Shown here piece after piece: positions 25,281 through 57,751 of a DNA stretch of 64,000 nucleotides. Position 1 is the stretch's first letter. Every line of letters begins with the position of its first letter. The translations under genes were made by a program, and so were the position numbers. The stretch is taken from contig CALXNZ010000002.1 of the NCBI GenBank assembly GCA_944389885.1, positions 124,001-188,000 on the forward strand. Direction: 5' to 3'. The notes beneath the pieces were generated by a model, which saw only the letters and a list, made by a program, of their open reading frames with translations, was not told where the DNA came from and did not search any database. This DNA comes from an uncultured Opitutales bacterium (GTDB lineage Bacteria; Verrucomicrobiota; Verrucomicrobiia; Opitutales; Intestinicryptomonadaceae).

Positions 25281-26375
25281 ATGAACAGCGCAATAACAGC
25301 AATAAGCTATGCCGTACCCGACGGGAGGCTGACCCATGCGGAGCTCTGCTCGCGCTTCGGGACTTCCGTAATGGACAAGGTATCGAAATTGAGCGGAATA
25401 TTGGAGCGCAGGATATGCGCGGACGGCGAATGCGCTTCGGATTTGGCCGCACAAGCTGCAAAGAGGCTGTTCTATACGTCGGGAATCGGGCCGGACTCCA
25501 TAGATTTGCTGTTAATGGCTACCCAGACGCCCGACTTTGCGATGCCCACCACAGCCTGCATTCTGCAAGATAGATTAAGCATAAGCAAGTCGGCCGCATG
25601 TCTCGACATAAATCTCGGCTGTACCCAATTTATATACGCCATTGCCACGGCGCAATCATGGATTGCTTCCGGCTTGGCCAAGCGCGCTCTCGTTCTTTGC
25701 GCTGACACCCCGTCAAAACTGATAAATAAAATGGACAGGAGTGCCGTATCGATTTTCGGGGACGCCGCATGCGCCATACTTATAGAAAAGAGCCGCCTTC
25801 CCTCAATTATAGGATTCGACTTCGGCAGCGACGGTTCCGGATACGATGCCCTTATATGCCCATGTTCGGGAATGAGAAATCCGCCTTCGCCTCCAGACGC
25901 TGAAGAAAAACGCGATGCCGACGGAAACGTAAGAAGCAATATGAACATGAAGGTTGACGGGTTGAGGATTTTTGCCTTTGCCTACAAGACAATCCCGGAA
26001 TCGGTAAGCAATCTTTTAAATAAACGCGGGCTAAAAGTCTCCAATATAGACTTGTTCGTGTTTCATCAAGCCGGCTATAAGATTGTATCCGACGCCGCTG
26101 AACGTTTAAAAATCCCCAGAAAAAAAGTTTACTATAAAATGCACGACATCGGCAACTGCGGAGGCGCAAGCATAGGCATAGCATTGGCCGACGCCGTGTC
26201 CACAGGCAGATTAAGGCCGGGAATGAAAGTAGTATGCTGCGCATTCGGGGTCGGTTTATCGTGGGGGTCGGCCCTCATCGAATGGAGTGGAAATTTCCGT
26301 TCGGCATCACGCGTGGGAGATTTCTCGCGCAGTCCAGAAAAGCCAGAACAACAGCGCTGCGCGGATATGATATAA
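25281..26375 (+). CDS. 3-oxoacyl-ACP synthase III (FabH-like)
   Basis: Thiolase-fold ketosynthase that usually condenses an acyl-CoA starter with malonyl-ACP. The Cys-His-Asn triad is intact: Cys114 (NLGCTQF), His262 (FHQAGY), Asn292 (GNCGGAS). 364 aa, with a ~30-residue charged C-terminal extension beyond the normal end (GVGLSWGSALIEW). It has SDGSGYDALICPCSG in place of the usual central loop. No Shine-Dalgarno is obvious. It stands alone on the plus strand at the edge of the cluster, its stop touching the stop of the radical SAM fusion. A role as priming enzyme is inferred; a housekeeping FabH is the alternative but the sequence is divergent from it. Confidence 0.88.
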   Translation: MNSAITAISYAVPDGRLTHAELCSRFGTSVMDKVSKLSGILERRICADGECASDLAAQAAKRLFYTSGIGPDSIDLLLMATQTPDFAMPTTACILQDRLSISKSAACLDINLGCTQFIYAIATAQSWIASGLAKRALVLCADTPSKLINKMDRSAVSIFGDAACAILIEKSRLPSIIGFDFGSDGSGYDALICPCSGMRNPPSPPDAEEKRDADGNVRSNMNMKVDGLRIFAFAYKTIPESVSNLLNKRGLKVSNIDLFVFHQAGYKIVSDAAERLKIPRKKVYYKMHDIGNCGGASIGIALADAVSTGRLRPGMKVVCCAFGVGLSWGSALIEWSGNFRSASRVGDFSRSPEKPEQQRCADMI

Positions 26376-29300
26376 TCAGGGCTCCCTGCCTATAACCAGA
26401 GCGTAATTATTGCCTGTAAATCCGGAAGAAATACACAGTATGCGCTTGGCCATGTCGGGGAGATGGGCCCCGTCTATATCAGGATTCCCGGTTATCTGGG
26501 GCCAAAGCCTATCCGCGGAAAGGGCGCAAGCCAAAGAAAGCATTGCCGAAGTCGTTTCAATTTTTCCCGTATTAAACACCGTAGTTATAAGCGGGACTCC
26601 CTCAAACATATCGGTTGCTAAATCCAACACTTTCTTATCCTGCGCGTTTCCAAAGGGGCTGAACACTATCAAGTCAATATCCTCCGCCGCGCACCGCGAT
26701 TTCTCCAATGCCTCTATTACGGCGGACTTGAGGCATGCCCCTCCCAAATCCGGCTCGAGAAAATCCCCGCCGGACTGAAAAGCGCCGAATCCCATTATTT
26801 CTCCAAGTATCGCAGCCCCCCTGGTCTTTGCGTCGGATTCCCGCTCCAACATAAACGCAACGGCGCCCTCTCCCATGACAGTCTTTAGCGCATCTGCACA
26901 ACTGAGTCTGAAGTCTTTCTGCTCCTCCCCTGAATAAAGGCGCCCCACAAGCGAATATCCGCAGAGTTCCTGGGCGTACAACTCGTCCGCGGCGACAGCC
27001 AGCATAGCAGTCGCCGCCCCGTCCGCTATTTGCCTGCGCGCAAATTCAACGGCTTGCAGCCCGCAGTCGGAGCCCGATGTAAGAGTAATATTTGCCCCCC
27101 TCAACTCGAGAGCTTTTGAGACCCAGCCCGCAGTGGAATTAGCCGTGACATTTGAGAAACACGCAACATTTCCCTTCCCGTCTTTTGACGAGAATACCGC
27201 GTCCATATGAGGAGCCTCGTTGGAGCCCCTGCTTACAGACATTGCCAACCCAACCTTATCGGACAATTCCCGCCTTATTTTGAGCCCGGAAGAATCCAGA
27301 GCCGATTTTGCCGCAAGAGTCGCAAAAATACTTATCGGATTCATTCCGCTGAGATCGAGCCTCCTGTCGAGGGAACGCGCGGAGGGTAGCCGCACATTTC
27401 CCGACATAGAATCTGAATGGAAACGTTCCGGACAGCCTATCGCCACAACTCCATTATTTAATGCCGATAAGTTATCGGCCACGGTGAGCCCGAGGGGGCT
27501 GACAGCCCCGACACCGCTTATCACAATTTTTTCGGAGCCGCTTTCCCGCGATTTTGGGAGAGGCGAAATAAAATCGCGCTTGGCCACCACAATGGCCGCG
27601 TTATTCCCTGCAAAAGCATAATTGGCCGATAGAAAGCAATCGTAAGAGACATCTAAACGCTTATCCAGCGCCTCAACCTTGCAGCCCGAACGCAGCCCTA
27701 CATTATGAAGGGTCGCCGGAATAAAGTTTTCGTTCATAGCCAATAGTTGGCAAGTGGCTTCAAGTATGCCGGTGGCTCCCATACAGTGCCCCATATATGA
27801 TTTCGTGGACGTTATAGGAAGTTTGGCGGAACCGAGAAATTTCAATATGCCCTTAGACTCGGCCATATCGTTTGCGGCAGTGCCGGATCCGTGGGCATTT
27901 ATACAACCCAAATCTTCCGGATTAACCCCGGCATTGTCCGATGCGGCCTTCATCACCCTGAATGCGCCATCTCCGCGGGGATCCGGCTGCGTTGGATGAT
28001 GGGCGTCGGCTCCGCTGGCATGGCCTATGACCTTCCCGTAGCAGCGCGCCCTGCGCAGTAGAGCCGCCCCCATATTTTCTATAATCCAGAAAGCCGCGCC
28101 CTCGCCTATATTCATGCCCTCGGGGGTTGAAAATGGAGCTATTTTATTGGGTGAGACAACCTTTATAGCGCAAAACCCGGCGTAATTTGACAAAGCCACA
28201 GCATCGGCTCCGCCCACGAGCACAATTTCGCAATCTCCCGATTCTATAAGCGACTCCGCCAAGCCTATTGCCGCCGTAGAGCCCGAACATGCCGTATTAA
28301 CTACCCAGCAATCTCCAGATATTCCAAGGGCCGACGACATCGCTTTCGCCACGGCGTAGAACTCCGACTGGCTTGATACGGACAAATCAAAACGAGCCGA
28401 CGAATCGCCATATTTCTTTCTGTATTCAATCTCCCCGGAATTTAAGCCGGCATTGCATGTTGCAAGCACCATTCCGAACTTTTTCCCAATATTACGCAAA
28501 TCAATCCCGGCGTCCCTCAACGCCATGCGAGCCGCGCATATGGCCATGCGCAAATAAGGATCCGTAAAGGTCCGCATTTCACTTTCAGACATCAACAAAG
28601 ACGGATTGAAATCCTTAACCTCCGCGCACAGATGCCCCACAAACCTTGAAGTGTCTATTTTTGACGCCTCGGAGATTCCGTCCCTACCCTCGCGCAAAGC
28701 CTGCACCACGCTCTCCTTGTCGCAGCCCACAGGAGACAATATGCCAATTCCCGTTATTGCCGCTTCATGGCCGACTCCACGTTTTTGCATGCTTTTGCTT
28801 ATGGAAATCTCTCCTTTGTCCCACACCGACGGTTCCATGTGGGCTATATTTCTCTGGTGATTCATATCGTAAAACCCCTTCCAACAATTTACGAACTGCG
28901 AATACAAGGTGTCGGCCGACATTCGGGCAGGCTTGAATACGACATTCGCCCCATTGTATTTATGCCATTGGCGGGACGTTATCCTGCCCTGAGACATAAG
29001 CCTATCCCAATGCCTCGATCCGGGATAGGGGGAAAATATAAAAAATTCCGCGGTGTTTATATCGGCGTACGAGCAAAGCTCCAAAACTCTGTCCGATATG
29101 GAATCGTCGTCCCAATCCCTGCCTATTCCAAAAGACGCAAAAAAACCGATTCCCAATCCCCTGAGAGTGTCGGCAAAGTCTTTAAAGCGCGCCCTCAATC
29201 CCCTGTCATCTCCGCGCAAGAGCGCTATGGAAAGCGGATCAACATTCATAGTGCAATAAAAATTGCGCACTCCAGCCTTCGCGGCCTTCTCAATAAAATC

Positions 29301-30092
29301 CACACCGCAATTTAACGCGAGAGTGGAAGACACAAAAAACTTTTTTCCGGAATCGGCGATGGCGTCAAAAAACTTCTCCGCGTATTCCCTGACAGATTTC
29401 TGGGGAAAGAACAGTGAGTCGTCTGTAAGATACACGTTCTCGAACTTCAGCCTGGAAATCTCATCTACGGCCATATCAATCGGCTTAAACCTTATCCTGC
29501 CGCCCATGTGGCGCGGAATTATGCACATCGCGCAGTCGTAGTAGCAGCCGCGCGTAAGCTGTATAAGATCCTCGTCCCAATCGTACGATTGTTTGCCGTA
29601 AAACAAATCCCTGCGGGGTTCAGGCACATCGGCCATATCTACCGGACGCGACGCCTTGTATAAAGGCCTTAATTTTCCGGACCTCATATCCTCTATCACC
29701 TGGGGCCAGATGAGCTCCCCTTCCCCAACGCAAACGCTGTCCGCGTACTTTAGACATTCATCCGGCATGAAAGACGGAAACATTCCGCCCATAACGCACT
29801 TTTTGCCGCGCTCTTTGCACATGCGGGCAATCTCGAGGGCTCTCGTCCCCTGGGGGGTAAAGCTGCTTATCGCGTACAAATCGGATCCGTCCTCAAAATC
29901 CAGTGGTTCCCCGGCGTTGTCGTCGGTAAATGCAATATCTATATCCGGAGGCGTAATGGCCGCCAAAATCGGAATTCCGAGCGCCGGCGGACATGTAAAT
30001 TTCCCGACTGTAAAAAATCTGCTCTCCTCCTTCATGTTTGCGACGGAATCGAGAAACTTTTCAAAACGCGGATATATAAAATTTATTTTCAT
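26376..30092 (-). CDS. B12-type radical SAM + ketosynthase + chain-length-factor fusion
   Basis: Single 1238-residue frame with three units. (1) About 1-430: N-terminal B12-binding-like domain (PPALGIPILAA, VGEGELIWPQVIEDM) and radical SAM barrel with Cys183, Cys187, Cys190 in RGCYYDCAMC, which bind the 4Fe-4S cluster. (2) About 443-840: ketosynthase of KAS I/II type with the full triad, Cys602 (NTACSGS), His734 (NAHGSGT) and His769 (KSYMGHCMGA). (3) About 855-1238: second KAS fold in which the Cys position is Ser1008 (SGSDCGLQAV), the first His is lost (SPFGNAQD) and the second is Lys1177 (NTGKIETT), as in chain-length factors. The lipoprotein gene before it overlaps its start by 4 bases. 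I know no described enzyme with this order. No frameshift or internal start is needed to explain it. Confidence 0.9.
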   Translation of the reverse strand: MKINFIYPRFEKFLDSVANMKEESRFFTVGKFTCPPALGIPILAAITPPDIDIAFTDDNAGEPLDFEDGSDLYAISSFTPQGTRALEIARMCKERGKKCVMGGMFPSFMPDECLKYADSVCVGEGELIWPQVIEDMRSGKLRPLYKASRPVDMADVPEPRRDLFYGKQSYDWDEDLIQLTRGCYYDCAMCIIPRHMGGRIRFKPIDMAVDEISRLKFENVYLTDDSLFFPQKSVREYAEKFFDAIADSGKKFFVSSTLALNCGVDFIEKAAKAGVRNFYCTMNVDPLSIALLRGDDRGLRARFKDFADTLRGLGIGFFASFGIGRDWDDDSISDRVLELCSYADINTAEFFIFSPYPGSRHWDRLMSQGRITSRQWHKYNGANVVFKPARMSADTLYSQFVNCWKGFYDMNHQRNIAHMEPSVWDKGEISISKSMQKRGVGHEAAITGIGILSPVGCDKESVVQALREGRDGISEASKIDTSRFVGHLCAEVKDFNPSLLMSESEMRTFTDPYLRMAICAARMALRDAGIDLRNIGKKFGMVLATCNAGLNSGEIEYRKKYGDSSARFDLSVSSQSEFYAVAKAMSSALGISGDCWVVNTACSGSTAAIGLAESLIESGDCEIVLVGGADAVALSNYAGFCAIKVVSPNKIAPFSTPEGMNIGEGAAFWIIENMGAALLRRARCYGKVIGHASGADAHHPTQPDPRGDGAFRVMKAASDNAGVNPEDLGCINAHGSGTAANDMAESKGILKFLGSAKLPITSTKSYMGHCMGATGILEATCQLLAMNENFIPATLHNVGLRSGCKVEALDKRLDVSYDCFLSANYAFAGNNAAIVVAKRDFISPLPKSRESGSEKIVISGVGAVSPLGLTVADNLSALNNGVVAIGCPERFHSDSMSGNVRLPSARSLDRRLDLSGMNPISIFATLAAKSALDSSGLKIRRELSDKVGLAMSVSRGSNEAPHMDAVFSSKDGKGNVACFSNVTANSTAGWVSKALELRGANITLTSGSDCGLQAVEFARRQIADGAATAMLAVAADELYAQELCGYSLVGRLYSGEEQKDFRLSCADALKTVMGEGAVAFMLERESDAKTRGAAILGEIMGFGAFQSGGDFLEPDLGGACLKSAVIEALEKSRCAAEDIDLIVFSPFGNAQDKKVLDLATDMFEGVPLITTVFNTGKIETTSAMLSLACALSADRLWPQITGNPDIDGAHLPDMAKRILCISSGFTGNNYALVIGREP

Positions 30093-30637
30093 TTTTCAAA
30101 GTCCAATACCCGAAGTTTAATGCCTAATAACGATTGTTCCGCCGAGATCTCCATAGGCGCCGATACATCTCCTACGCGCGCAAAATTTGAAAAGCTTAAA
30201 ACCATATCGGAGGATTTTAGACGGATAGCATTTCCCTCTGCCGAATACTCGATTTCCCTGTCGCAAGAGCCGTCAACTATGCCCAAAGCCGCCCGCATAA
30301 AATCAGAGACAAAGCCGCGGGCGACATTCTCGGGAAAACCGTTGTAAACATCGATTTTATTTTCCTTGCCCGAATTGAACAGCCAAATTTTTGCAAGAGT
30401 ACCGCCGTCGCTTGACAGGGATATTTTAAGAAATCCGCCGGAAAGCGCAGCGCGCAGTATTACAGGAAATTCCGAATTGCCGACCCTGAACTCGCCTCTC
30501 GCCATAAAATAAGACAGACGGGAAAGCCCGAATCCGTCCAAGCGCACAAAGTTCCCGGATGTACGCGGAGTCAATATGTTGCATGCGGCAACATTAAGCA
30601 CAATGAGCACAAAGAGTATGCACTTGTAGAAATTCAC
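30089..30637 (-). CDS. Lipoprotein in polyene-like cluster (DUF3261-like layout)
   Basis: Signal peptide with lipobox LNVAAC (lipidated Cys19), then a ~160-residue domain with alternating short strands (GEFRVGNSEFPVILRAAL, LKISLSSDGGTLAKIWLF) and a C-terminal LLGIKLRVLDFEK. Aryl-polyene loci carry an outer-membrane-type lipoprotein of similar size (DUF3261) beside a LolA-like gene, and this pair has the same arrangement; I assign it by context, not by a diagnostic motif. It sits 3 bases after the LolA-like gene and overlaps the radical SAM fusion by 4 bases. Confidence 0.68.
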   Translation of the reverse strand: MNFYKCILFVLIVLNVAACNILTPRTSGNFVRLDGFGLSRLSYFMARGEFRVGNSEFPVILRAALSGGFLKISLSSDGGTLAKIWLFNSGKENKIDVYNGFPENVARGFVSDFMRAALGIVDGSCDREIEYSAEGNAIRLKSSDMVLSFSNFARVGDVSAPMEISAEQSLLGIKLRVLDFEK

Positions 30638-30640: not shown

Positions 30641-31243
30641 TTAAAACTCGAATTTTAGAAAATCAGGGTTTCTCTCGTCAAGGGCGCCCCCTATATTGGA
30701 AGGGTTTTCCTTTACCGAAGAAAAATCAATTTCCCTCGTATCCCCGTCGATATAACGGAGCCTTATTTTCTTCGGGACAGTCCCATTTGAAGCGTAAAAA
30801 GACTCTATGCTGAGCAGGCCAGAGGGATCGTCCTTTGGCATTTTTACAACAATCCCGCCGGCGATTTTTTCAAGCTTCCAGCTGGGATCCGCCTTTCCTC
30901 CCAATACCATCGCGGCTATTCTCTTTACGAGAGCTCCCGCTTTCTCGGACGCCGAAGGGGAACTCAATCTGCGCCATTTTCCGTCTGCAAATTCGTAAAA
31001 CGACACTGAGCCGTCGGAAAACAGCGTTATGGATTTTGACGGGCTCAAAGTCTGCCACCGCACGCTTCCCGAAGAATTTGCCACCATAAATCCTGACGAG
31101 CGCAACGGCTTATCAAACATATTCGACTCAAGCCGGCTCTCAAATTTCAGTATCACTCCCGACAATCCCTTGAGTTCGGCCGCAAAGAGCTGGCTCCCAA
31201 ATACCGCGCATAGCGCTAAAAAAATTCCCAATATTTTTTTCAT
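30641..31243 (-). CDS. LolA-like periplasmic carrier protein
   Basis: Signal peptide (MKKILGIFLALCAVFGSQLFA), then a beta-rich domain with the LolA pattern: an amphipathic start (LKGLSGVILKFESRLESNMF), paired strands such as SSGSVRWQTLSPSKSITLFS, and PKKIRLRYIDGDTREIDFSSV near the end, which matches the LolA C-terminal half. About 200 aa. ATG 31243 has AAAGGG at good spacing. In polyene clusters such carriers are thought to move a lipid or product-lipid conjugate across the periplasm; that is inferred here. Confidence 0.8.
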   Translation of the reverse strand: MKKILGIFLALCAVFGSQLFAAELKGLSGVILKFESRLESNMFDKPLRSSGFMVANSSGSVRWQTLSPSKSITLFSDGSVSFYEFADGKWRRLSSPSASEKAGALVKRIAAMVLGGKADPSWKLEKIAGGIVVKMPKDDPSGLLSIESFYASNGTVPKKIRLRYIDGDTREIDFSSVKENPSNIGGALDERNPDFLKFEF

Positions 31244-31244: not shown

Positions 31245-33374
31245 TTATACCCTTTCAAAAATCAATATTCCCACAAATCCCGTACTCGACAAGTTCCAGT
31301 GCGCAAAATAACGGCCTTCCGTCCTATCAGCGGCGCAGAAAATCCCACCGGACTTTGAATAGTTGTCCGACAGCGGAGAAATCATCTTAAAAGAATATCC
31401 AAGTTCCGACTGAAGGTTTTCCGAAAACTTGCGCGCGAATTTCCCCACGGGAGGCAGAGAAAAAAACGCGTCTATTTTAGACAAGTCGAATTCAAAACGT
31501 TTGAAGTCCTCCGCAATCATGTCGCGCTCAGCTTTCGGAGTCGATGCCCTCGCCCTATTAAAGACCCCGATTATCCTAAATTTAGGACGCATACCCGACA
31601 TCAACAAATCGCCCCCCAGCAAGTGCGCGGCTGAATAATCCGACGACGGGTAGGCGGAAGAATCCCGGCGATATCTTGCAAAATCGTCCGCCCACTTGTT
31701 CGTCATATCTCCGGCACACGCAAGCACCGCATCGAGTTTTCCGGTCCGCAGAGATGAGAAGGCCTGCTTTAGGGCGCACTCAAAAGATATTTCGCCGGCT
31801 GTCGCCGCGGAGTTTAGACCCTTAAATCCGAAATGCATAGCCAATAACGATGGCGGGGCATTGTGAACGGAGTTTACAAAAGATGTCGGAATGGGCTCGC
31901 TCTCGCGCTTTTTTATAGTCGCAGTCAGAAATTTTTCGATTTCGTCGGTCATTCCAAGTCCGGTTCCCCAACACACTCCTATTCTATTGGTATCTATTCT
32001 TTCGGAAAGTCTGGATAACTCCAAAGGCCGCGCAACTTCCAAGGCCATCTGTTGAAGCTTTGCCCATTTGCGTTTCTTGAGCTGAGGAATATCCTTAAGA
32101 AGTCCCGAGGCGTCGATTGCGCCATTGCCCCCTATTTCATGAGAGCCAAACACATAAACAGCGGAAGTTTTCCCATGGCGGATTTCGGGGCGAGCTCGAA
32201 CGCCGCGCCTTGAAACTACGGCGCAAGAATTGTTCCCGCCAAATCCGAAGCTCGCGCTCAATACATGCTCAATTTGCGCGTGAATCGGAGCTCCGACCGG
32301 GGACAATCCTATTTGCGGATCGACGGTTCTAAAACCCGCGCTCGGGGGAATTATGGAGCGCGATGCGCAAAATGCCGACACTATAACATTTAACACTCCG
32401 CTTGCGCCGAGAGTGTGTCCCACCACCCCTTTTATAGATGAGAATGGCGGCGGGACATCTCCGAATACACTCCGCAAAGCCTGAGCTTCCGACAGGTCGT
32501 TCCCCCGAGTTCCCGTTCCGTGGGCGCAATAAAAAGAGATGTCTTTCGGGGAGATTCCGGCAAGTTCAACCGCCAATTTCATCGCCCTGGCGGCGCCATC
32601 GCCGTCGGGACGCGGCGCGGTAGCGTGATACGCGTCCGCGGAAAGCCCCCATCCGGAGATATGCGCTATGGGCTTGAGAGAATGATTGTAGGCAAAAGAT
32701 TCCGAAGCCAGAACAATCACTCCAGCTCCCTCCCCAAGATTTATGCCGTCGCGATTTGCGTCAAATGGCCGCGAATCCGAATCGGAAAGCAACATTAGAG
32801 AGCCGAATCCGTTTACGGTCGTGCGCGATAGCGAATCCGCCCCGCAGACTACCGCCAACTCGAGCTCTCCGGAAGATATGGCCTCGCACGCCTCCGCTAT
32901 GGCTATGCCGGAACTCGAACACGCTGTGGAAAAAGTGCTGCAAGCACCCTTGCAACCAAGGCGTTTCGCCACAAACTCCGCCATATATGAACACTCGTAC
33001 TTTCCCAATACGCCTATATCCGGAACACCTCCCCGGTCGAGATATTTAGCCAACATATTTTCGGCGTCCAATACGCCTCCTATGCTCGTACCAAGAAATA
33101 CTCCAGAATTAGCGCCGCGCGGAAGATTCAGGTTTTCCAAAGCCTCGTCGAGAGCCGACAGCAAAATGCAACCGCAATTAGAAATCCCATGCCCGAGCCA
33201 CGAATGATTTATCGGGGCAATGCCAAATTTTTTATTTCCGAAGCGGGGGCTGTCGAAAATAGTCTGCCTACCGAAGAGGGGACGCCCTTCGAGAACGGCA
33301 TTCCACAATTTCTCCGCTCCCTGTCCGGCGCATGTGCATGCGCCTATAGAAACTATCAGCGGGGCGGAATTCAT
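31245..33374 (-). CDS. Ketosynthase fused to inactive KAS-like (chain-length-factor) domain
   Basis: 709 aa. Residues about 1-390 are a KAS II-type ketosynthase with Cys152 (STACSSSG), His285 (CAHGTGT) and His320 (KGVVGHTLGASG). Residues about 404-700 form a second domain like the N-terminal ketosynthase homologues (Ketoacyl-synt_2) used as chain-length factors in aryl-polyene synthesis: SFVNSVHNAPPSLLAMHFG and AATAGEISFECALKQA, with no catalytic Cys. It presumably extends the chain with ACP partners. Its start overlaps the ACP gene by 4 bases. KS and CLF are normally separate subunits, so this is a fusion of an obligate pair. Confidence 0.9.
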   Translation of the reverse strand: MNSAPLIVSIGACTCAGQGAEKLWNAVLEGRPLFGRQTIFDSPRFGNKKFGIAPINHSWLGHGISNCGCILLSALDEALENLNLPRGANSGVFLGTSIGGVLDAENMLAKYLDRGGVPDIGVLGKYECSYMAEFVAKRLGCKGACSTFSTACSSSGIAIAEACEAISSGELELAVVCGADSLSRTTVNGFGSLMLLSDSDSRPFDANRDGINLGEGAGVIVLASESFAYNHSLKPIAHISGWGLSADAYHATAPRPDGDGAARAMKLAVELAGISPKDISFYCAHGTGTRGNDLSEAQALRSVFGDVPPPFSSIKGVVGHTLGASGVLNVIVSAFCASRSIIPPSAGFRTVDPQIGLSPVGAPIHAQIEHVLSASFGFGGNNSCAVVSRRGVRARPEIRHGKTSAVYVFGSHEIGGNGAIDASGLLKDIPQLKKRKWAKLQQMALEVARPLELSRLSERIDTNRIGVCWGTGLGMTDEIEKFLTATIKKRESEPIPTSFVNSVHNAPPSLLAMHFGFKGLNSAATAGEISFECALKQAFSSLRTGKLDAVLACAGDMTNKWADDFARYRRDSSAYPSSDYSAAHLLGGDLLMSGMRPKFRIIGVFNRARASTPKAERDMIAEDFKRFEFDLSKIDAFFSLPPVGKFARKFSENLQSELGYSFKMISPLSDNYSKSGGIFCAADRTEGRYFAHWNLSSTGFVGILIFERV

Positions 33375-33643
33375 TTTGATCTGGCCATGACAAAATCGGC
33401 CAAAGCCGCCGGAGAGCGGAATATCTTTTTCACGTCGTCCTTATTGTCAACTGAAACGGAATACTTGGACTCTATCATAACAACGAGTTCAAGGGCATCG
33501 ACAGAATCCAAACCGAGTCCGGAATCTCCGAAGAACTCCGCGTCGTCGGCGATATCGGACGCGGACATATCGCCGAGATTTAACGCGCTTATGACATTCT
33601 TTTTTATATCTTCGATTAAGCTTTGTCTATCCATACCGGTCAT
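33371..33643 (-). CDS. Acyl carrier protein (cluster copy 1)
   Basis: Carries the growing chain on phosphopantetheine. Motif GLGLDSVDALEL gives the attachment serine (Ser47 counted from this ATG). The acidic helix II ELVVMIESKYSVSVD follows. ATG 33643 is chosen for 90 aa, with AAAGTGG upstream; an ATG three codons later is equally possible, and the frame is open to 33679. It overlaps the ketosynthase gene by 4 bases, which fits direct partnership. Confidence 0.9.
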   Translation of the reverse strand: MTGMDRQSLIEDIKKNVISALNLGDMSASDIADDAEFFGDSGLGLDSVDALELVVMIESKYSVSVDNKDDVKKIFRSPAALADFVMARSK

Positions 33644-33691
33644 ATCGCGCCACTTTAGGGCGGGAAGAATCATTATCAAGAATAAATATGC

Positions 33692-36600
33692 CTACTGTCC
33701 CCAAAAGTCGAAGAAATTGTACCACTGAAAAGGATGTTTTTTCAAAGCTTTAGAGAGTTCCGATAAGAATTTTTCCGCCGCTGCGGCGCATTCCCCAGCG
33801 GAGGCGTTTTTGCGTATGGGAATTTCAATCGCGCGCATGGAGTATTCAGCGTATCCTGTCTTAAAGCACACAACCAAAACAAGAGCCGCTCCGGACTTTG
33901 CGGCTAATATATATGGCGCAAGGGGAACGCGCAGAGTCGAACCTAAAAATTCCGCATTCACATAGCGTCCGCCAGCGTATCTGTCGGCATGCATTGCCAC
34001 AATTCCGCCCCCTTTCAATACAGAATAGGCGGACAACATTCCTGATGCGTCCCCGGAGTCACCTATAAATTTTGGGCGGGCTTTCCTCATTCTCGATTCA
34101 AAGAGCTCGCGAATGTCGCTTCTCTCAAGCTCCGCCCCCACCAAGCCGACTTCCACCCCATATTTGAGAAGTTCTCCCGATGAAATCTGCCACCCCCCCG
34201 CATGAGCCGTCAGGACCACAACGCCGCAGCCGCGCCCCAACCCTTCGCGGACTACATGCTCGGCAGAATCCCTGCAACGTATCTTGCCGGAATCTGAAAA
34301 ATAGGCCACCCTGTCTATTATCGACATTCCGAAAGAATAAAGCAGCCTGTATAGCTTAAAAGGCATAAAACCGCGTTTTTCTCCAAACAATTTGTCGAGA
34401 TATACCCGCGAATACACGCACAATCCGCTCCTAAACACTTGAAAGAACCCCGCGACAAAGACGAGCAAAACATATGCGGGAAGAAGTCCAATTCTCAAGA
34501 GAAGCAAAAAACAAAAGTTTCCCCAATATCCGCCGCGGGTCCTACCCGTCCAACCCGCATTTGGATTCCCATCTCCTTCTCCCCGCGCCAACAGCGGGGG
34601 CACAGTGAGCAATGTTGCCGCATATATAAACACTATCGAAAGCCCCGCCGCTATTCCGAGCGAGCTCAAAACGGGGTGCTTGGCCGCAGCCAAAACTCCG
34701 AACGCTGCGGCCGTCGTCAAAGCCGAGGCCGCCGTAGATCTCAAAGACGCCGCACAATTCCCGTTTTTACGGTAATCGTAAATCATAAAGACGGCATAAT
34801 CCTGGGCCAGGCACACCGCAAATACGACAAATACCGCATTCACCATGTTTACGGGTTCCCCAATCAAAGACATTGTCGCGAATGTCCACAGCAAGCCTAT
34901 TGCCACAGGCGTCAAAGCCGTAAATGCGCCCTTCACTCCCCCGAGCGCTACAAATAGATAAATCGCCACAAGAACAAATGTAGCCGCCGCAAAATTGCGA
35001 AGCCAAACCGACGCGATGTCGGATATTTCTCCGGATAGAAAATCTGCATCTGCAAACGCCGCGTTCGGGAAAGAGTCCGAAAGAGACTTTGCAAATGCCG
35101 CCCTGTCCGCATCGTCTCCAAATTCCACTAATGTGAGAATAGACACTCCATTCGCGCCGCAAGCTATTCTTCCCTTAAAAATAGATTCGAGCTTGGAAGT
35201 ATCCAGGGGAGTCGGAGATGCGTCTGCAAGCGACATGGAATCGGAAAATACCGCCTCCTTCACTCCGCATTCCGCGCACGCATCTTTCAAGTTGCGCATA
35301 AAATCCGCCTTCCGCTGCGGACTCCAAAAATGTTTCCAACGCTCAAAGTTTTTTCCCGCCGACGAAGCGTCGGGAAGCAAATGGGCGAGGGAATAGTATT
35401 TTATACCTTTTATTCCTGACAGAAAAGAACTTAACTTAGAATTCTCCGCAAGCGCCGAACTCATATCCGAACCGCGCGCGATTATCGCCGAACGCTTCAA
35501 AGCGCCTCCCCAAATTTCACGCAGCTTATCGGAATCATTTTGGGCTTCAGGGCCGAGGCCGTTAAAGGAATCCGGCGAACCGTCAAAATTCAGATTTTGA
35601 ATTTCCCACAAAGACAATCCCGATAGAATCGCGCAAGCGCAAAAACCGCGCAATCCCAGTCTTTTGAGCCGTGGATAGAATGTCTCTGCCGCGATTCCGA
35701 ACGCGCTTCTGCCGGATTTTTTCAATCTGATTCCCGATAAAAATGCGGGCAGGAATAAGACGCACAGCAATGCCGAAAAAGTTATGCCAAGCCCGCCTAT
35801 AACTCCAATTTGAACAAAGCCTGATTCACCCAATACAGCCATGGCGGCAAAAGCGATGAGTGTGGAACCCGCCACCACAGATATGGGCCGCGCAAACATC
35901 TCCGAAGTTTCAGCGGCAAGTTTGGGCGTTATTTTTTCAAAAATGTCAAGCCTGCTTAAAACATGAATTGCGTAATCTATGCTCACACCCACAGAGATGC
36001 CTGCAAACGCCGAAGCTATGGGGGATATCTCCGTAAAAAAGCAACGGGAACACGCGAATCCAAACAAAGCCCCAAGCATTGACGGAATAATCGCCGCAAA
36101 AGCGAACCATACATTGCGGAACGCCAGAAACGTTATTGCCAACATAGCCGCCAGGGTAAGAAACAGACAAAACTTTGAGTCCGCAGAAGCAGTCGAAAAA
36201 TTCTCCGCGGCAATCCGACACGCCCCCGACCAGAATATTTCCGCTCCGGTTTTTCTTTCTATCTCGCTAACGGTATCGGATATGCGCTCCGAAATCTTCC
36301 GAGCCGCGGAAGCGTCCGAAGTATCGCTTAAAAGCTCTCCGACAATTAGTATCGCCCTGCCGTCAGAACAGCCCGACATCTCACTTGAAAATGCCGACAA
36401 GTCCGACGGCGACACGGATTTCTTTAATTTCTGGAGCCAGATTCCCAAAATATTTGCCGGATCCCCCGAAAACACCCCCCTCAACTGCGGAGACGCCCCC
36501 AAAGCCATGCGCTCTTTAAAATATTCGATGCGCCGCTTTAGAAAATCTTTGCGGATACCCAATTCCAAAGAAGATTCAGCCTCAGAATCAAAAATATATG

Positions 36601-36964
36601 GGAATGCCGAAATCAAAGCCCCGATAAAATCGCCATTGAGAAATTCTCCGGCCCCATTTCCCGGGAAAGACGCCAGTTTTCCTCCCTGAAGTTTTTCGGT
36701 GAGCAATTTAGCGGCGGCGGACGAATCCTCTGCGCTATTTCCGCAGACCCCGAAAAACACTGCGCGAGTTTGGCCGAATAATTCCGCAGCCCCCCTATAA
36801 TCGTCCAACACCGAATTGCGGAACGGCAATATGCCGTATATGTTTTCGCCATATCTGGCTCCAACCGCAAAAAAAGCCGAAACCGCCGTCGAGATTGCCA
36901 ATAGGGCGATGAACACAAATTTGCGGGCGCATACAAGCTCCGCTATTCTCCTTGAAACTCTCAT
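33692..36964 (-). CDS. MMPL/RND exporter fused to LpxL-like acyltransferase
   Basis: 1090 aa. Residues about 1-790 are an RND/MMPL transporter with two sets of membrane helices and two periplasmic loops; ISVGVSIDYAIHVLSR and AVCLAQDYAVFMIYDYR mark the proton-relay helices of each half. Residues about 800-1090 match the LpxL/HtrB lysophospholipid acyltransferase family: VVVLTAHAGGWQ, FIGDSGDASG, AMHADRYAGGRYV, PFQWYNFFDFW. The usual HX4(D/E) active site reads His921...Gln926, so the acidic residue is missing. Probably exports the cluster product or its lipid and acylates it. It starts inside the GT2 3' end (4-base overlap). Upstream MMPL exporters occur in aryl-polyene and xanthomonadin loci; the fusion is less usual. 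Confidence 0.88.
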   Translation of the reverse strand: MRVSRRIAELVCARKFVFIALLAISTAVSAFFAVGARYGENIYGILPFRNSVLDDYRGAAELFGQTRAVFFGVCGNSAEDSSAAAKLLTEKLQGGKLASFPGNGAGEFLNGDFIGALISAFPYIFDSEAESSLELGIRKDFLKRRIEYFKERMALGASPQLRGVFSGDPANILGIWLQKLKKSVSPSDLSAFSSEMSGCSDGRAILIVGELLSDTSDASAARKISERISDTVSEIERKTGAEIFWSGACRIAAENFSTASADSKFCLFLTLAAMLAITFLAFRNVWFAFAAIIPSMLGALFGFACSRCFFTEISPIASAFAGISVGVSIDYAIHVLSRLDIFEKITPKLAAETSEMFARPISVVAGSTLIAFAAMAVLGESGFVQIGVIGGLGITFSALLCVLFLPAFLSGIRLKKSGRSAFGIAAETFYPRLKRLGLRGFCACAILSGLSLWEIQNLNFDGSPDSFNGLGPEAQNDSDKLREIWGGALKRSAIIARGSDMSSALAENSKLSSFLSGIKGIKYYSLAHLLPDASSAGKNFERWKHFWSPQRKADFMRNLKDACAECGVKEAVFSDSMSLADASPTPLDTSKLESIFKGRIACGANGVSILTLVEFGDDADRAAFAKSLSDSFPNAAFADADFLSGEISDIASVWLRNFAAATFVLVAIYLFVALGGVKGAFTALTPVAIGLLWTFATMSLIGEPVNMVNAVFVVFAVCLAQDYAVFMIYDYRKNGNCAASLRSTAASALTTAAAFGVLAAAKHPVLSSLGIAAGLSIVFIYAATLLTVPPLLARGEGDGNPNAGWTGRTRGGYWGNFCFLLLLRIGLLPAYVLLVFVAGFFQVFRSGLCVYSRVYLDKLFGEKRGFMPFKLYRLLYSFGMSIIDRVAYFSDSGKIRCRDSAEHVVREGLGRGCGVVVLTAHAGGWQISSGELLKYGVEVGLVGAELERSDIRELFESRMRKARPKFIGDSGDASGMLSAYSVLKGGGIVAMHADRYAGGRYVNAEFLGSTLRVPLAPYILAAKSGAALVLVVCFKTGYAEYSMRAIEIPIRKNASAGECAAAAEKFLSELSKALKKHPFQWYNFFDFWGQ

Positions 36965-37674
36965 TTCCCGAGGGCGATTTTCCTAAGTTTTTCTCTCGAA
37001 AACACGAGGCTTTGAAACCAAAGCTTCGCATTCATTATCGAGAATTTCACGGTGTCTGCAATGGGCCTATAATGGGATCTCGCCAGAACACCGGCATTAT
37101 ATATTGTCGGAATCTCGAGTGGAATGATACCGATTCCAGCCCAAGCAGCCTTCACAAGAAGCTCGCTTTCAAATGTAAATCCGTCAAAAGACATGTCCAA
37201 CCCGGATATTTTGGAAATTGGATAACACCTGAATCCGCACTGGGTATCTCCCAAACGAACTCCCGTTTCAGCCTTGAACCAGAAATTGGAAAATCTGTTC
37301 ATAAACCTGCGCGATACGGGAACGGTGGAATCCGAAAAATTGCGCACACCCGCAACTATGCAATCCGGATTTCCAGCGGCGGCCTCAAGAAATCGACCCA
37401 CCTCGGAAGGCGGATGCTGCCCGTCGGAATCCATTGTCACCGCGTGCGTGTAGCCATCGCATAATGCCCTTTTAAAAGCCGCCTTCAATGCGTAAGCCTT
37501 TCCATGGTTTTTATCAAACCTAATGAGTCTGACGCCCCCAAAAGTATCGGATATCGACACGGGCGGAACGGAGCCGTCGTCCACCACAAAAATATCCGCG
37601 CCGGATATTCCGCCCAAGACTTCCGCAAGGGAGTCCCCGTGATTATGGCATGGAATAATGACGCAGAATCTCAT
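36961..37674 (-). CDS. Family 2 glycosyltransferase
   Basis: 237 aa GT-A fold enzyme of the dolichyl-phosphate-mannose-synthase type. Seen: FCVIIPCHNHGDSLAEVL, VVDDGS, DSDGQHPPSEV (metal-binding DxD), GDTQCGFRCYP and a basic C-terminus without membrane helices. A similar GT2 is found beside the MMPL gene in aryl-polyene clusters, where a glycosyl head group is thought to be added. First gene of the minus-strand run of the cluster; its start faces the divergent ACP gene across 89 bases. Confidence 0.9.
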   Translation of the reverse strand: MRFCVIIPCHNHGDSLAEVLGGISGADIFVVDDGSVPPVSISDTFGGVRLIRFDKNHGKAYALKAAFKRALCDGYTHAVTMDSDGQHPPSEVGRFLEAAAGNPDCIVAGVRNFSDSTVPVSRRFMNRFSNFWFKAETGVRLGDTQCGFRCYPISKISGLDMSFDGFTFESELLVKAAWAGIGIIPLEIPTIYNAGVLARSHYRPIADTVKFSIMNAKLWFQSLVFSREKLRKIALGK

Positions 37675-37763
37675 GACACTTGATTTTACCTTGAAATGGC
37701 CCTACAAATCTTTTTTATTTTCCGACAGTTTTTTACATAAATTTATTTTTGCAATTACAAAAA
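37675..37763. promoter_or_regulatory. Divergent promoter region of the cluster
   Basis: Only gap between oppositely pointing runs in the cluster, 89 bases and AT-rich, so it must drive GT2 > ... > radical SAM fusion on the minus strand and ACP > GcvT-like > thioesterase > FabG on the plus strand. TTGAAA at 37691 and TACATA at 37734 are candidate plus-strand elements but their spacing is poor; no operator is clear. Confidence 0.4.
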
Positions 37764-38051
37764 ATGCCAAGCAATACGGAAAGATTTGCCGAGCGCAAAG
37801 AAATAACTGAAACACTGAAGGCCAGACTCATAGAAAACCTGGATATTCCATACCGCCCGGACGATATAAGCGACGACGTTGCGCTGATAGGTTCGGGGCT
37901 CGGGCTGGATTCGCTCGACGTGCTGGAGATAGTTTTGTGCGTGGAAAACAATTTCGGAGTAAAAGTTCCGGAATCGAGTTCCCATATACTCCGTTCCCTG
38001 AACACCTTGGCGGATTTCATAATGGAGGAACGCGGCAAATGCGCAAACTGA
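37764..38051 (+). CDS. Acyl carrier protein (cluster copy 2)
   Basis: 95 aa. Attachment serine in GSGLGLDSLDVLEIVL (Ser50 from this ATG). Closest in pattern to the first cluster ACP (both have GLGLDS), which suggests paralogues with separate jobs, as in aryl-polyene loci that carry two ACPs. ATG 37764 is used; a TTG five codons upstream is in frame. Overlaps the GcvT-like start by 13 bases. Confidence 0.9.
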   Translation: MPSNTERFAERKEITETLKARLIENLDIPYRPDDISDDVALIGSGLGLDSLDVLEIVLCVENNFGVKVPESSSHILRSLNTLADFIMEERGKCAN

Positions 38052-39130
38052 CACTTGAAAAACTCTGGGAGGCGGAGGGAGCAAACTTCGGGCAAGCGGG
38101 GGGCGCGCAATGCGTCGCTGACTTCGGGAATGCCGACGCCGAATACGGGAAGCTTCGCAACAGCGCGGCTCTCTGCGATTTTTCATTCACCCAACGCCTA
38201 TCCTTTGACGAATCCGACGGAATCGACTTTCTCGATTCAATGCTCGCTGCCAATATACTGAAACTGCGATACGGAAGAATAACCGACACTTATCTCGCCG
38301 ACGAATACGGCAATATTAGAGCCGAAGTGCTCGCCGGAAATATAGACGATAAAATAATCGCCGTACTCGAATCGCTCGACGACTCATGCTCGAAATGCCT
38401 TTCTGATGGTTCCGCACAATGCTCCGATTTAACAGATTCCCATATCCTATTATCGGTTGACGGCCCGGATTCATGGAAGGTCGCAGTGGCGGTATTCGGA
38501 ACCGACATACTCAACCTTCCATTTATGTCGGTAGAAAAGTATCGCTATGAAGACGCCGACACTTATCTAATGCGCAGCGGAAAAACCGGGGAATACGGCT
38601 ATCAGTTCATGGCCCCAAACGCGATTGCGGAGAAACTCGCAAAACGCCTTTTGGAGGAATCTAAAAAGCTCGGGGGCGGACTGTGCGGAATGGCCGCGCA
38701 CGCCCTTGCAAGGCTCGACGGAAATTTTTTTAATATATACGGGGAAGGCGCAAGAGTACTGAACCCTCTAAAACTCGGCCTGCAATGGATGACGGATTTT
38801 GAAAAGGAAAAATTTCCGGGTTCCGAAAAAATATACTCGGAACGCGACTCCGGTATTTCACAAAAAATCTGCGCCGTGCAATCGGCCGGAGACACCCCCC
38901 TCAATCCCGGGGATAAAATATTCGACTCCGACGATGAAGTAGGGGAAGTTGTACACGCCCTAAGATCTCCAATATCCGGGAAATGGACCGGGCTCGCCCT
39001 CATGAAATCGCATTGCGCGTTTTCCGGTTTTGGTTTTTCAAGAACCCCAAACGGCGGCGAAGAAATATTCACCGTTTCACGCCCGACAGTGCTCGCCAAA
39101 AGCCTCAGCAAACCTATGCTTCAAGAATAA
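38039..39130 (+). CDS. GcvT/YgfZ-like folate-binding protein in lipid cluster
   Basis: 363 aa with the aminomethyltransferase fold: NSAALCDFSFTQRLSF, the VDGPDSWKVAVAVFG segment (GcvT has a similar GP motif), SGKTGEYGYQFMAP (like GcvT tGexGye), and NPLKLGLQWMTDFEKEKFPG. True glycine-cleavage T-protein would sit with gcvH/gcvP; none are here. Folate or one-carbon chemistry on a small molecule is possible, as is a non-enzymatic role like YgfZ. ATG 38039 is chosen from the start of the domain and the ACP overlap. Ends with TAATG, sharing a base with the thioesterase. Confidence 0.82.
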   Translation: MRKLTLEKLWEAEGANFGQAGGAQCVADFGNADAEYGKLRNSAALCDFSFTQRLSFDESDGIDFLDSMLAANILKLRYGRITDTYLADEYGNIRAEVLAGNIDDKIIAVLESLDDSCSKCLSDGSAQCSDLTDSHILLSVDGPDSWKVAVAVFGTDILNLPFMSVEKYRYEDADTYLMRSGKTGEYGYQFMAPNAIAEKLAKRLLEESKKLGGGLCGMAAHALARLDGNFFNIYGEGARVLNPLKLGLQWMTDFEKEKFPGSEKIYSERDSGISQKICAVQSAGDTPLNPGDKIFDSDDEVGEVVHALRSPISGKWTGLALMKSHCAFSGFGFSRTPNGGEEIFTVSRPTVLAKSLSKPMLQE

Positions 39131-39552
39131 TGCCGCGAAGAATAACACGCAGGCTCGAATTCACACCGGAATTCAGAGAATTCGACATGATGGGCGTAGC
39201 CCATAACGCCGCTTATTTTAATTGGTTTGAAAGGGGGAGATTCCAAATACTCAACGATATAATGCCGATGTCGGAATCTTTAAGAAACAAGCTCGCAGTG
39301 GTCGTTCTGGAAAATCGCTGCAAGTATGTGGAATCAATCCGATACGAAGAGCCGCTCCTGCTGATTACCCGCCATAAAATAGACGACTTTTACACGGGCC
39401 GCCTCGAGTTTGAGCATGAACTCTCAGGCCTAAACACAAAGCGCCTGCACGCTACGGGATTTTGCATGTGCTCAATAATAAATACCGACACCGGCGCTCT
39501 CGCCCGCGAATTCCCGCAGGAATTATGGCAGAAATACTCTTCTCTAAAATGA
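39130..39552 (+). CDS. 4HBT-family acyl thioesterase
   Basis: Hot-dog-fold thioesterase of 140 aa. The motif [20 protein letters not shown] fits YbgC-type enzymes (catalytic Asp in FDMMG), followed by [12 protein letters not shown] and a C-terminal strand region. Likely releases the ACP- or CoA-bound product, or proofreads. Shares one base with the upstream gene and overlaps the FabG start by 4 bases. Confidence 0.88.
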
Positions 39553-40283
39553 ATCTCGAAGGAAAAACAGCAATCGTAACAGGTGGCTCGCGGGGAATAG
39601 GCGCGGCCGTCGTGGAGAAATTGTCGGAGCTTGGCGCAAAGGTCTATTTCACTTATCAAAAAAGCGCCGCCAGCGCCGAAGCTTTGGCCGAACGCTGTAA
39701 AGCCCGCGCAATGCTATGCCCCCAATCTGACGGTGAATCCATATCGAAACGTGTAGCTGAAATACTTTCTGAATGCGGTTCAATAGACATTCTCGTAAAC
39801 AATGCGGGCATCACAAGAGACACATATCTGCCTCTCATGCCGGAATCCGAATGGAACACGGTAATAGACACAAATCTGAACGGCGCATACCGTTGGACAA
39901 AAGCCGTATCAAAATCTATGTACTCAAACAGGAGAGGAAGCATAGTATTCATATCCTCTGTATCGGGCCTGGTGGGAATTCCCGGGCAGACAAACTATGC
40001 GGCGAGCAAGGGCGCAATATGTTCATTTATGCGGGCTATCGCCGCGGAATTCGGAACAAGGGGAATACGCGCAAACTGTGTGTGCCCGGGGTTTATTTCC
40101 ACAGATATGACCGCAAAAATCCCGCGGGACATCGCAAACGCCCAAAAGAAAAGGATAGTTATGGGGCGTTTCGGGAATCCTTCTGAGGTCGCCGACGCGG
40201 TGGCGTTTTTGGCCTCTGATAAAGCATCGTATATAACAGGCCAAATACTCACCGTTGACGGAGGCTTGACGGGCTGCGCCTAA
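39549..40283 (+). CDS. 3-oxoacyl-ACP reductase (FabG-like SDR)
   Basis: NADPH-dependent ketoreductase, 244 aa. Seen: [14 protein letters not shown] cofactor loop, NNAGIT, SSVSG with the catalytic Ser, YAASKG (Tyr/Lys), [13 protein letters not shown], and VDGGLTG at the end. Frame is open upstream, but ATG 39549 overlaps the thioesterase stop (ATGA) and matches the family start [12 protein letters not shown]. Its stop overlaps the stop of the opposite-strand flavin reductase by 4 bases. Confidence 0.95.
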
Positions 40284-41353
40284 GCGTTTCCGCGGGGAAA
40301 AATGCGATTGAGCTTTGCCATGAGCGACAAGTCTCCCTCAACTTTCAAAAAGCCTTTCTTCATCTCCTCAATAGCATTTTTACGCCCCGAAGACAGCCCT
40401 ACCCAGACTTCCGGAGCGCAATACACGGCCAACTGCTCCTTAAAATCCGAACTGCGGCAAAGTTCGCACGAGCCTTCAGCGATTTTTATGGAATAGACGC
40501 GCGAATCCCCAAAGTCAAAGCGTATTGACGCGTTCTTTGGCGAGTTTTGCGGAGAAAACCTCTTGCACATTTCAGAAAGAAGAATTCCCATATCTTCGGA
40601 AGCCGCCCCGGAGGAAAATCCACCACGACTATCCCCGCGTTTCCTCAAAGCCCAGAATACTTTAGCGTTTGCGGCAAAGGCTGCGTCGCTCTCAGCCAAT
40701 TCAAGTTCCGCCGTTCTCAATGTGCGCGGCTGTATAAAACCTTCCAAGCCGAATTGCTCTCCGGCCTTCACCATTGCGTCAAGCACGCGCCGGACACGCA
40801 GGGACATTCCGCCGAGTATGGAAAAATATGGAGACTCACCACGCCTAATGTCGGCCACATATTCTATGCCCAAAGCCCCGGCTATAGATGCATATGTCGC
40901 CGACATGGCATCAAACGAACCTCTCAGCCTCCCGGAAGCAATGCTTATTGTGACAAGCTTTTTAGGCTTTAGAGGAAATGAGGTTATATTTATCAAATTG
41001 CCCTTTTCCTTATCGAAGTCGTATCCCTTGACGAAAGGAAAACATCTGTCAAAGAACGCCTTCATCTGGGCGCTCATTCCATAGAAGTATACCGGTGAGA
41101 CACAAACTAAGGCGTCGGCCTCCTCAACCAAGGGTATGATGGCGCGCATATCGTCGTTTATCGGGCAAGCTCCGCGCGCGCTGTCGGACGAAGAGCATAT
41201 AAAGCAACCTCTGCACGGGTTTATATTTGACGAACACAAGTCTACATCGTCCACATGCGCGGGAGTTCTGCGCAAGCCTTCCGCGAACAGATCGGCCATT
41301 TTGTCCGATACCCCTCCTTTGCGGGGATTCCCTCTCAGAATCAACACCCTCAT
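40280..41353 (-). CDS. NADPH-dependent FMN reductase with SCP2-like C-terminal domain
   Basis: 357 aa, two parts. N-terminal flavodoxin-like reductase (about 1-185): [18 protein letters not shown] (FMN phosphate loop), Cys47-x2-Cys50-x2-Cys53 with Cys63 (ferredoxin-like iron-sulfur flavoprotein layout), [19 protein letters not shown]-terminal ~100 residues (about 255-357): [15 protein letters not shown] and [37 protein letters not shown] match the sterol-carrier-2 lipid-binding domain. A redox enzyme carrying its own lipid-binding domain could act on the cluster's acyl product, perhaps saturating or desaturating it. Start overlaps the FabZ stop by 4 bases. Confidence 0.82.
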
Positions 41354-41793
41354 ATTGCGACATTTTCCGCAGACACCAAAACCAGCACTCCCGAAGCCAC
41401 AAGGCGCTGTTCGGACAATGCCTCCACCGAGAAACGGCAGAGACCGCCGTATTCGCGCTCGAGACGAGATTTAAGCTCAAGAGTTTCGCCTGCGCGAGCC
41501 ACGCTTACAAATTTAATATTGTTTGACGCCAGAAAGAACATTTTGTTCCCGGGTTCCGAATCTGCTTTTAGAGCCAAAAGCAATCCGCTCGCCTGGGCAA
41601 GGGCCTCAACTGCTATAACTCCGGGAAGTATGGGCATGTTCGGGAAATGCCCCTTAAAAAAGGGCAATTCCGGTTTTAGCTCAAAAGTTGCGCATATGCT
41701 TCCGCGCTTCTCGAAAGACGCGACCGAATCCACAAATAAAAACGGATCGCGATGCGGTAAATAATTCTTTACGCTTTCCCTATTTAAAATCAT
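41350..41793 (-). CDS. 3-hydroxyacyl-ACP dehydratase (FabZ-like)
   Basis: 147 aa hot-dog dehydratase. NYLPHRDPFLFVD at the start, GHFPNMPILPGVIAVEALAQASG with His49 and Glu63 as the likely catalytic pair. Dehydrates the ketoreduced chain; the only dehydratase in the locus. Sits between PlsC-like and flavin reductase genes in an operon led by addB. Confidence 0.93.
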   Translation of the reverse strand: MILNRESVKNYLPHRDPFLFVDSVASFEKRGSICATFELKPELPFFKGHFPNMPILPGVIAVEALAQASGLLLALKADSEPGNKMFFLASNNIKFVSVARAGETLELKSRLEREYGGLCRFSVEALSEQRLVASGVLVLVSAENVAI

Positions 41794-41801: not shown

Positions 41802-42578
41802 TCATTTAAACGATTGGCGCAGTTGGGCAAGTTTTTTCGAAATTCTCGAATAGGCCGCGTCCGACATTTTCCCATACGATAATCCCGATTCTAAAGGCGG
41901 CAAAAAGTCTATTATGAATTTGTTTCCCTTTTTTTGAGGAAGCCACGGTTGCCCTTTTGAAAGAAATGGATACCTTGAAAATACCACGCAAGGATAAACC
42001 GGAGCATTGCTCTCATGGGCAAGCTTAAACGCGAGCCCCTGAAAGTCTTGAAGCCTGCCGTTCTTGCTGCGTTTGCCTTCGGGAAACACTATCAGATTGC
42101 GCCCGGAAGCCAGAATTTTACGCGCGGAGGAAAACGCCGCAGCCGCGGCTGCGGGAGAGCGACTGTCTATAACGCAGAAGTCGAATATTTTTATAAGCAC
42201 CCAGACCGCCAACCAGTTCTTATATTTTCTTTTTATGACAACCCCGGCGTTTGGAATCAGCGACAACAAAAACAGCGGATCCAAAAGCGACGAATGGTTG
42301 CATACATAAACGCAGCCGGATTTCTCACTCAAAGCCGGAGGCAGTTCGATTTCATACATGCCCAGCCGCGGCCAAAGCTTGAGAGTTTGGAAAGCCAATA
42401 TATGCCGGAGAGCGCGGGACAAAAACAACTTGCGTTTATGCGGAGCAAACGCAACACATATCGCGGCAGATGAAATTATAAATATCAGATTGGCGAAGAT
42501 ATAAATTATCCCGCAGGCTATAAATTTGAAATTGAAGAGTGCCCCGCCAATTCCGGAAAATTTTTCTGTACGCTCCAT
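41802..42578 (-). CDS. 1-acyl-sn-glycerol-3-phosphate acyltransferase-like (PlsC family)
   Basis: 258 aa membrane-bound LPLAT. Hydrophobic N-terminus (about 18-45), HX4D active site His95...Asp100 (CNHSSLLDPLF), and FPEGKRSKNGRL acceptor motif. Probably attaches the cluster product, or a fatty acid, to a lipid backbone. Eight bases separate it from fabZ. Confidence 0.9.
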   Translation of the reverse strand: MERTEKFSGIGGALFNFKFIACGIIYIFANLIFIISSAAICVAFAPHKRKLFLSRALRHILAFQTLKLWPRLGMYEIELPPALSEKSGCVYVCNHSSLLDPLFLLSLIPNAGVVIKRKYKNWLAVWVLIKIFDFCVIDSRSPAAAAAAFSSARKILASGRNLIVFPEGKRSKNGRLQDFQGLAFKLAHESNAPVYPCVVFSRYPFLSKGQPWLPQKKGNKFIIDFLPPLESGLSYGKMSDAAYSRISKKLAQLRQSFK

Positions 42579-57749: not shown

Positions 57750-57751
57750 AA

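Follow-up and report, generated by a model that had tools for sequence, protein, structure and literature searches.

A predicted B12-type radical SAM domain fused to a ketosynthase–CLF-like pair in an aryl-polyene-like gene cluster of Verrucomicrobiota

Introduction

Radical SAM chemistry and ketosynthase (KS) chain building are normally carried by separate proteins. Most of the characterised cobalamin radical SAM enzymes are methylating; TsrM, MgmA and CysS are C-methylases, AprD4 is a diol dehydratase and OxsB a ring-contracting enzyme. We know of no test on residues that would tell the methylases apart from cyclases or ring-contracting enzymes. The substrate that CysS methylates is bound to a carrier protein (PMC8992657). 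For Kuste2803, a B12-type radical SAM protein of anammox ladderane synthesis, a role in cyclisation has been proposed and is unproven (PMC2649909). In the ApeO–ApeC pair of the aryl polyene (APE) pathway the inactive half shapes the pocket (PMC8358021), and in E. coli the APE head group is methylated by a separate SAM methyltransferase, ApeB (PMC8253772).

We describe here a protein of an uncultured Opitutales bacterium that joins a radical SAM domain to a KS and a CLF-like half. It was analysed in a window of 64 000 nucleotides (contig CALXNZ010000002.1, positions 124 001 to 188 000). The order radical SAM–KS–CLF appears to be new; each part, and the KS–CLF fusion, are of kinds already known.

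Results

Domain structure of the fusion protein

Translation of 26376–30092 on the minus strand gave one frame of 1238 residues with 0 internal stops. The initial annotation had been right in describing an uninterrupted frame with three domains, and its residue numbers (Cys183/187/190, Ser1008 and Lys1177) were correct; the strand was absent from it. It had proposed a domain search and structure prediction as checks. Pfam and NCBIfam models recovered the B12-binding, Radical_SAM, KS and second KS-like regions, and confident AlphaFold models were obtained for the radical SAM part and for the KS–CLF part, as two separate models built on relatives. The fusion and its domains are as follows.

26376–30092, minus strand: B12-type radical SAM–ketosynthase–CLF-like fusion, 1238 aa (single frame; architecture repeated in other genomes)
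28818–30092, minus strand: cobalamin-binding-type Rossmann and radical SAM domain, residues 1–425 (Pfam/NCBIfam, invariant Cys, AlphaFold, Foldseek)
27573–28772, minus strand: active FabF-like ketosynthase, about residues 441–840, with Cys602, His734 and His769 (profiles, alignments, AlphaFold model, structure match)
26379–27545, minus strand: inactive KS-fold CLF-like half, about residues 850–1238, with Ser1008 and Lys1177 (profiles, alignment, AlphaFold; nearest whole structure PfaC KS–CLF, 6RIW)

In the N-terminal part, the B12-binding domain was placed at residues 70–128, with a PF02310 score (33.0 bits) barely above the cut-off of 32.1, and Radical_SAM at residues 177–316 (Pfam/NCBIfam). 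The CX3CX2C motif, Cys183/187/190, was invariant in an alignment of 20 relatives and the GG/GE(G/V)E loop was retained in the fusions. The AlphaFold model (pLDDT 89.5, pTM 0.88) contained Rossmann-type strands and helices. Two marks of a cobalamin-dependent radical SAM enzyme were thus found: CX3CX2C in a radical SAM barrel and an N-terminal Rossmann domain of the B12 kind. Fold neighbours identified with Foldseek were mainly B12-type radical SAM enzymes (AprD4, MgmA, TsrM, CysS and OxsB), at 13–16% identity over the aligned structures. AprD4 was the best match. We infer that the module is of the predicted cobalamin type; methylation is not implied by the fold, which alone leaves the reaction unsettled, as the case of AprD4 illustrates, and another radical step is possible. 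The presence of adjoining methylmalonyl-CoA mutase genes suggests that cobalamin is used in the source cell.

The nearest named NCBIfam models were TIGR04013 (55 bits) and TIGR04072 ‘lipid biosynthesis’ (48.1 bits). Membership of TIGR04072 was dropped, the score lying far below the equivalog cut-off of 360 bits, and no TIGR04072 protein was found at E 1e-30 in the genome or genus of the window.

The ketoacyl-synthase N and C models covered residues 445–796, and a FabF-like model residues 445–836 (Pfam/NCBIfam). The triad Cys602, His734 and His769 was invariant across 19 aligned relatives; numbering in the KS–CLF alignment is shifted by 424 relative to the fusion protein. The second KS-like half matched PRK06519 at residues 853–1101 and PRK06147 at 1006–1143. 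Here Ser1008 occupies the nucleophile position, where most relatives have Pro; the first His is missing and Lys1177 replaces the second. Wherever a relative had a CLF half, its Cys site carried Ser, Pro or some residue other than Cys, and the His were lacking. A KS–CLF pair, i.e. a catalytic Cys–His–His half and a KS-fold partner lacking the nucleophile, is therefore present. The AlphaFold model of this part (pLDDT 89.1, pTM 0.93) had as its top structural match the PfaC KS–CLF didomain (6RIW; E 3e-46, TM 0.76, 17% identity). Because of this resemblance, the pair should condense malonyl units on chains bound to an acyl carrier protein (ACP). The novelty claimed initially has to be narrowed accordingly: a KS–CLF fusion alone is known from the 6RIW didomain, and the N-terminal radical SAM domain is the unusual part.

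Gene cluster around the fusion

The neighbouring genes form a conserved type II FAS/PKS-like cluster.

25281–26375, plus strand: KAS III (FabH-like), convergent with the fusion (tail to tail) and probably the priming enzyme (profiles; same neighbour in relatives)
30089–30637, minus strand: small secreted or lipoprotein-like ORF, 182 aa, with a 4-base overlap with the fusion start and an apeN-like position (conserved in relatives)
30641–31243, minus strand: LolA-like carrier, apeL-like (profile matches LolA structures at E 7e-6; homologues above the PF03548 cut-off)
31245–33374, minus strand: second fusion of a KS and a degenerate KS, 709 aa (its KS half most like PRK09185)
33371–33679, minus strand: acyl carrier protein 1, PRK09184-like (profiles)
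33692–36964, minus strand: MMPL/RND exporter joined to an LpxL-like acyltransferase (profiles)
36961–37674, minus strand: family 2 glycosyltransferase (profiles)
37749–38051, plus strand: acyl carrier protein 2 (PP-binding, E 5e-7; conserved in relatives)
37937–39130, plus strand: GcvT-fold protein, start probably near 38039 (profiles; conserved in relatives)
38983–39552, plus strand: 4HBT thioesterase, apeK-like role, start probably near 39130 (profiles)
39462–40283, plus strand: FabG-like ketoreductase (profiles)
40280–41353, minus strand: FMN-reductase/flavodoxin-like and SCP2 domain protein (profiles)
41350–41793, minus strand: FabZ-like dehydratase (profiles)
41802–42578, minus strand: PlsC-like acyltransferase (profiles)

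Profile searches with the 182-aa ORF gave no family match and no structure match. With the product of 31245–33374, the cluster carries two single-chain KS–CLF-like enzymes, and in the loci seen the radical SAM domain is on only one of them. At 33692–36964 the MMPL and LpxL-like parts share one frame of 1090 aa; they are separate genes in different frames in 10 of the 10 relatives having both, and the join is either a private fusion or an assembly frame error. The GcvT-fold (aminomethyltransferase-like) protein beside ACP2 is kept in clusters with and without the radical SAM domain. Further along the window, 57114–63966 holds prophage-like genes in a row, among them those for a Mu-type portal and a phage cement protein.

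Most functions in the E. coli ape gene table are matched by this cluster (PMC8253772). Among the cluster ORFs scanned there was neither an ApeH-like starter-activating ligase nor an ApeB-like methyltransferase, and no aromatic ammonia-lyase (PF00221; flexirubin-type starter route) was found in the genus of the window. The nearest PaaK/FlxY-like ligase in the genome lies outside the cluster and is distant (189 vs 520 bits). An aryl starter is therefore doubtful, and the cluster is called ‘aryl-polyene-like’ only. A stretch of E. coli CFT073 examined as an APE yardstick did not contain the ape genes, which we take to lie in a pathogenicity island of that strain.

Recurrence of the fusion in other genomes

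A search of other genomes for the same architecture, also proposed at the outset, recovered the three-domain order in 11 records including the window, from several orders of Verrucomicrobiota; 2 of the 11 are cut by a contig edge. Independent full-length copies shared 46–65% identity with the window protein. The closest were those of G007 (GenBank CALXLN010000132, ‘uncultured Opitutales’; 65%) and G001 (62%), both full length. Fusions at 46–47% were found in Verrucomicrobiales JAEUHG010000226 (G565), Verrucomicrobia JABGOW010000380 and Victivallales CAILUI010000303. The remaining records came from G573, G644 and G418, with contig-edge fragments in G430 and G890. All the fusions that reach the motifs retain both the KS triad and the radical SAM cysteines; the nucleophile is missing from each CLF half present.

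The fusion is rare among the genomes sampled: it occurred in 3 of 373 for the order, about 7 of 384 for the class and 2 of 388 for the phylum, with overlap between these samples. The wider contig scan used short exact peptide patterns, which a fusion outside Verrucomicrobiota could escape. Of the wide distribution anticipated as support, recurrence was borne out; the spread is patchy and, as searched, confined to Verrucomicrobiota, and the clusters of most close relatives are without the radical SAM domain. No Pfam or NCBIfam model match spans the fusion, the structure searches returned no PDB entry joining these domains, and the fusion is not described in the open-licence literature searched; the initial remark that no characterised protein of this order was known held in all three. 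Chance, or a joining of separate genes during sequencing or assembly, for which no supporting point was found, is excluded by the presence of the same fusion in independent assemblies at 46–65% identity.

Presence and absence of the radical SAM domain

Nine other genomes of the genus of the window and two of a sister genus carry the same gene cluster with an orthologue of the KS–CLF half only. These orthologues have about 780–840 residues and start at the KS boundary. In G006 (same genus) only a contig-edge fragment of the orthologue was present; G010 (same genus, listed as 95% complete) was left out of all counts, as even rpoB gave no match. No comparable radical SAM protein was found elsewhere in the genomes of relatives lacking the domain at E 1e-20. 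The module is therefore an optional tailoring unit, dispensable in close relatives; since the shorter orthologues begin at the KS boundary within the same cluster, it is an add-on to a working KS–CLF enzyme.

The KS–CLF tree groups the distant fusions in one clade; within the family of the window it mixes proteins with and without the module, with at least three changes and several weak forks. The fused radical SAM domains fall together in one clade (100/99), separate from ten standalone relatives, and one fusion event is accordingly likely. The simplest reading is one ancient fusion with several later losses, whose number is loose because of the weak forks. Recent transfer of the radical SAM domain into the genus of the window was considered and is disfavoured: the fused domains make up a single clade, whose deep division mirrors that of the KS–CLF.

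Of the three domains, the radical SAM domain is the best conserved, with 70–72% identity to G001 and G007 vs 65–68% for the KS and 49–54% for the CLF half. Its pN/pS, 0.25–0.29, is the lowest of the three, pS being near saturation so that the ratios are rough. High identity and low pN/pS together indicate that this part is under purifying selection.

A counterpart in separate genes

In G624, G644, G565 and G573 a TIGR04072 (ladderane-type) radical SAM gene is followed by a second B12-type radical SAM gene, a KS gene and a gene for a short inactive KS-like protein, all separate. The order of the last three is the domain order of the fusion, and the second radical SAM protein is 30–32% identical to the fused domain. 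G418 has the split set minus the second radical SAM gene; G644, G565 and G573 have both fusion and split operon. The split operon repeats the pattern of an optional radical SAM partner to a KS–CLF pair. The Victivallales fusion locus (L084) contains two further radical SAM genes, at 1629–3059 and 6420–7760: one is TIGR04072-like (327 bits, cut-off 360), the other HpnR-like. On one contig of another genome from the order of the window (G041, L048 1–13890), four B12-type radical SAM genes are clustered.

Discussion

We read the protein most readily as a condensing enzyme in the synthesis of an aryl-polyene-like envelope lipid or polyketide, with a predicted B12-type radical SAM module that would C-methylate the ACP-bound chain; we give this a probability of about 0.5. 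The single-chain KS–CLF pair would elongate the ACP-bound chain, its inactive half shaping the pocket. The radical SAM module would modify the same chain, its presumed substrate, either at the synthase or in passing. For C-methylation, a 5′-deoxyadenosyl radical would take H from an sp3 carbon and methylcobalamin would give the methyl group. In relatives without the module the chain would be made and left unmodified. The likeness to PfaC, the radical SAM C-methylase folds and the carrier-bound substrate of CysS together make modification of an ACP-bound chain, most likely by methylation, the favoured inference. The radical chemistry tied to chain building that was suggested initially is supported by the conserved fusion, the FAS/PKS-like cluster and the split counterpart of the same gene order.

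There is a real, if lesser, chance that the same enzyme acts on the ACP-bound chain in a non-methylating way, whether by oxidative cyclisation, anaerobic dehydrogenation, dehydration or rearrangement, much as cyclisation has been proposed for Kuste2803 (PMC2649909). The best fold match is a dehydratase and OxsB contracts a ring, the nearest named models include TIGR04072 (48 bits) and TIGR04013 (55 bits), and TIGR04072-type proteins flank the split operon, with a diverged one in the Victivallales fusion locus. The fusion is nevertheless far under the TIGR04072 cut-off (48 vs 360 bits), no TIGR04072 protein turned up in the genus of the window at E 1e-30, and methylation prevails among the characterised cobalamin enzymes. 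It is unlikely that the radical SAM domain acts on another molecule, such as a starter acid, a head group or the finished lipid, and was fused just for co-expression or localisation. The domain is dispensable in close relatives and missing from most clusters, and E. coli methylates the APE head group with the separate ApeB (PMC8253772), but it is always N-terminal on the same one of the two KS–CLF proteins, and split operons place it directly before the KS–CLF. Repeated absence from relatives, which marks the domain as inessential, would also fit a non-catalytic remnant; with the three Cys and the GG/GE(G/V)E loop kept and the lowest pN/pS of the three domains, a remnant is very improbable. 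An artefactual join of separate genes can be practically discounted.

Returning to the favoured reading, the radical SAM domain and the KS–CLF pair probably share a substrate, since their covalent link has been evolutionarily stable. The recurrent fusion suggests that the synthesis of a membrane-lipid-like polyketide includes an unusual radical modification as an integral step. More tentatively, the fusion may stand for a class of multifunctional condensing enzymes whose cobalamin radical SAM domain acts during elongation, on the synthase, altering an unactivated chain carbon to give an undescribed modified polyene or lipid, the split operon being a distant counterpart. With the two activities linked in this way, the substrate of a whole range of orphan B12-type radical SAM enzymes of lipid clusters, including those beside ladderane-type genes, becomes testable on one protein, and the natural presence or absence of the domain between close relatives provides a ready product comparison.

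Comparison with known systems

As in the neighbourhoods of Kuste2803 and TIGR04072, a B12-type radical SAM protein lies here in a FAS II-like lipid cluster that also encodes inactive FabF paralogues; unlike TIGR04072 proteins, the fusion scores 48 bits against 360, and ladderane synthesis is itself unproven. With CysS, TsrM, MgmA, OxsB and AprD4 it shares a Rossmann domain, a radical SAM barrel and CX3CX2C. It differs from them in its fusion to a ketosynthase, none being described for these enzymes in the literature searched. As in PfaC of PUFA synthase (6RIW), KS and CLF are in one chain. In contrast to PfaC, whose 6RIW structure is without a radical SAM domain, the window has a type II cluster of discrete proteins, its ACPs free, and the multi-ACP type I organisation of a Pfa megasynthase was not found.

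The closest likeness in gene content is to APE clusters and ApeO–ApeC: a KS with an inactive partner, two ACPs, a ketoreductase, a dehydratase, a 4HBT thioesterase, a LolA-like carrier, an MMPL/RND exporter and acyl- and glycosyltransferases, the second KS and the ACP matching PRK09185 and PRK09184 best. The APE set of KS, CLF, ACPs, ketoreductase, dehydratase, thioesterase, LolA/MMPL export and acyltransferases is thus present. Unlike APE clusters, that of the window has KS and CLF fused, two such fusions, a KAS III, a GcvT-like protein and the N-terminal radical SAM domain.
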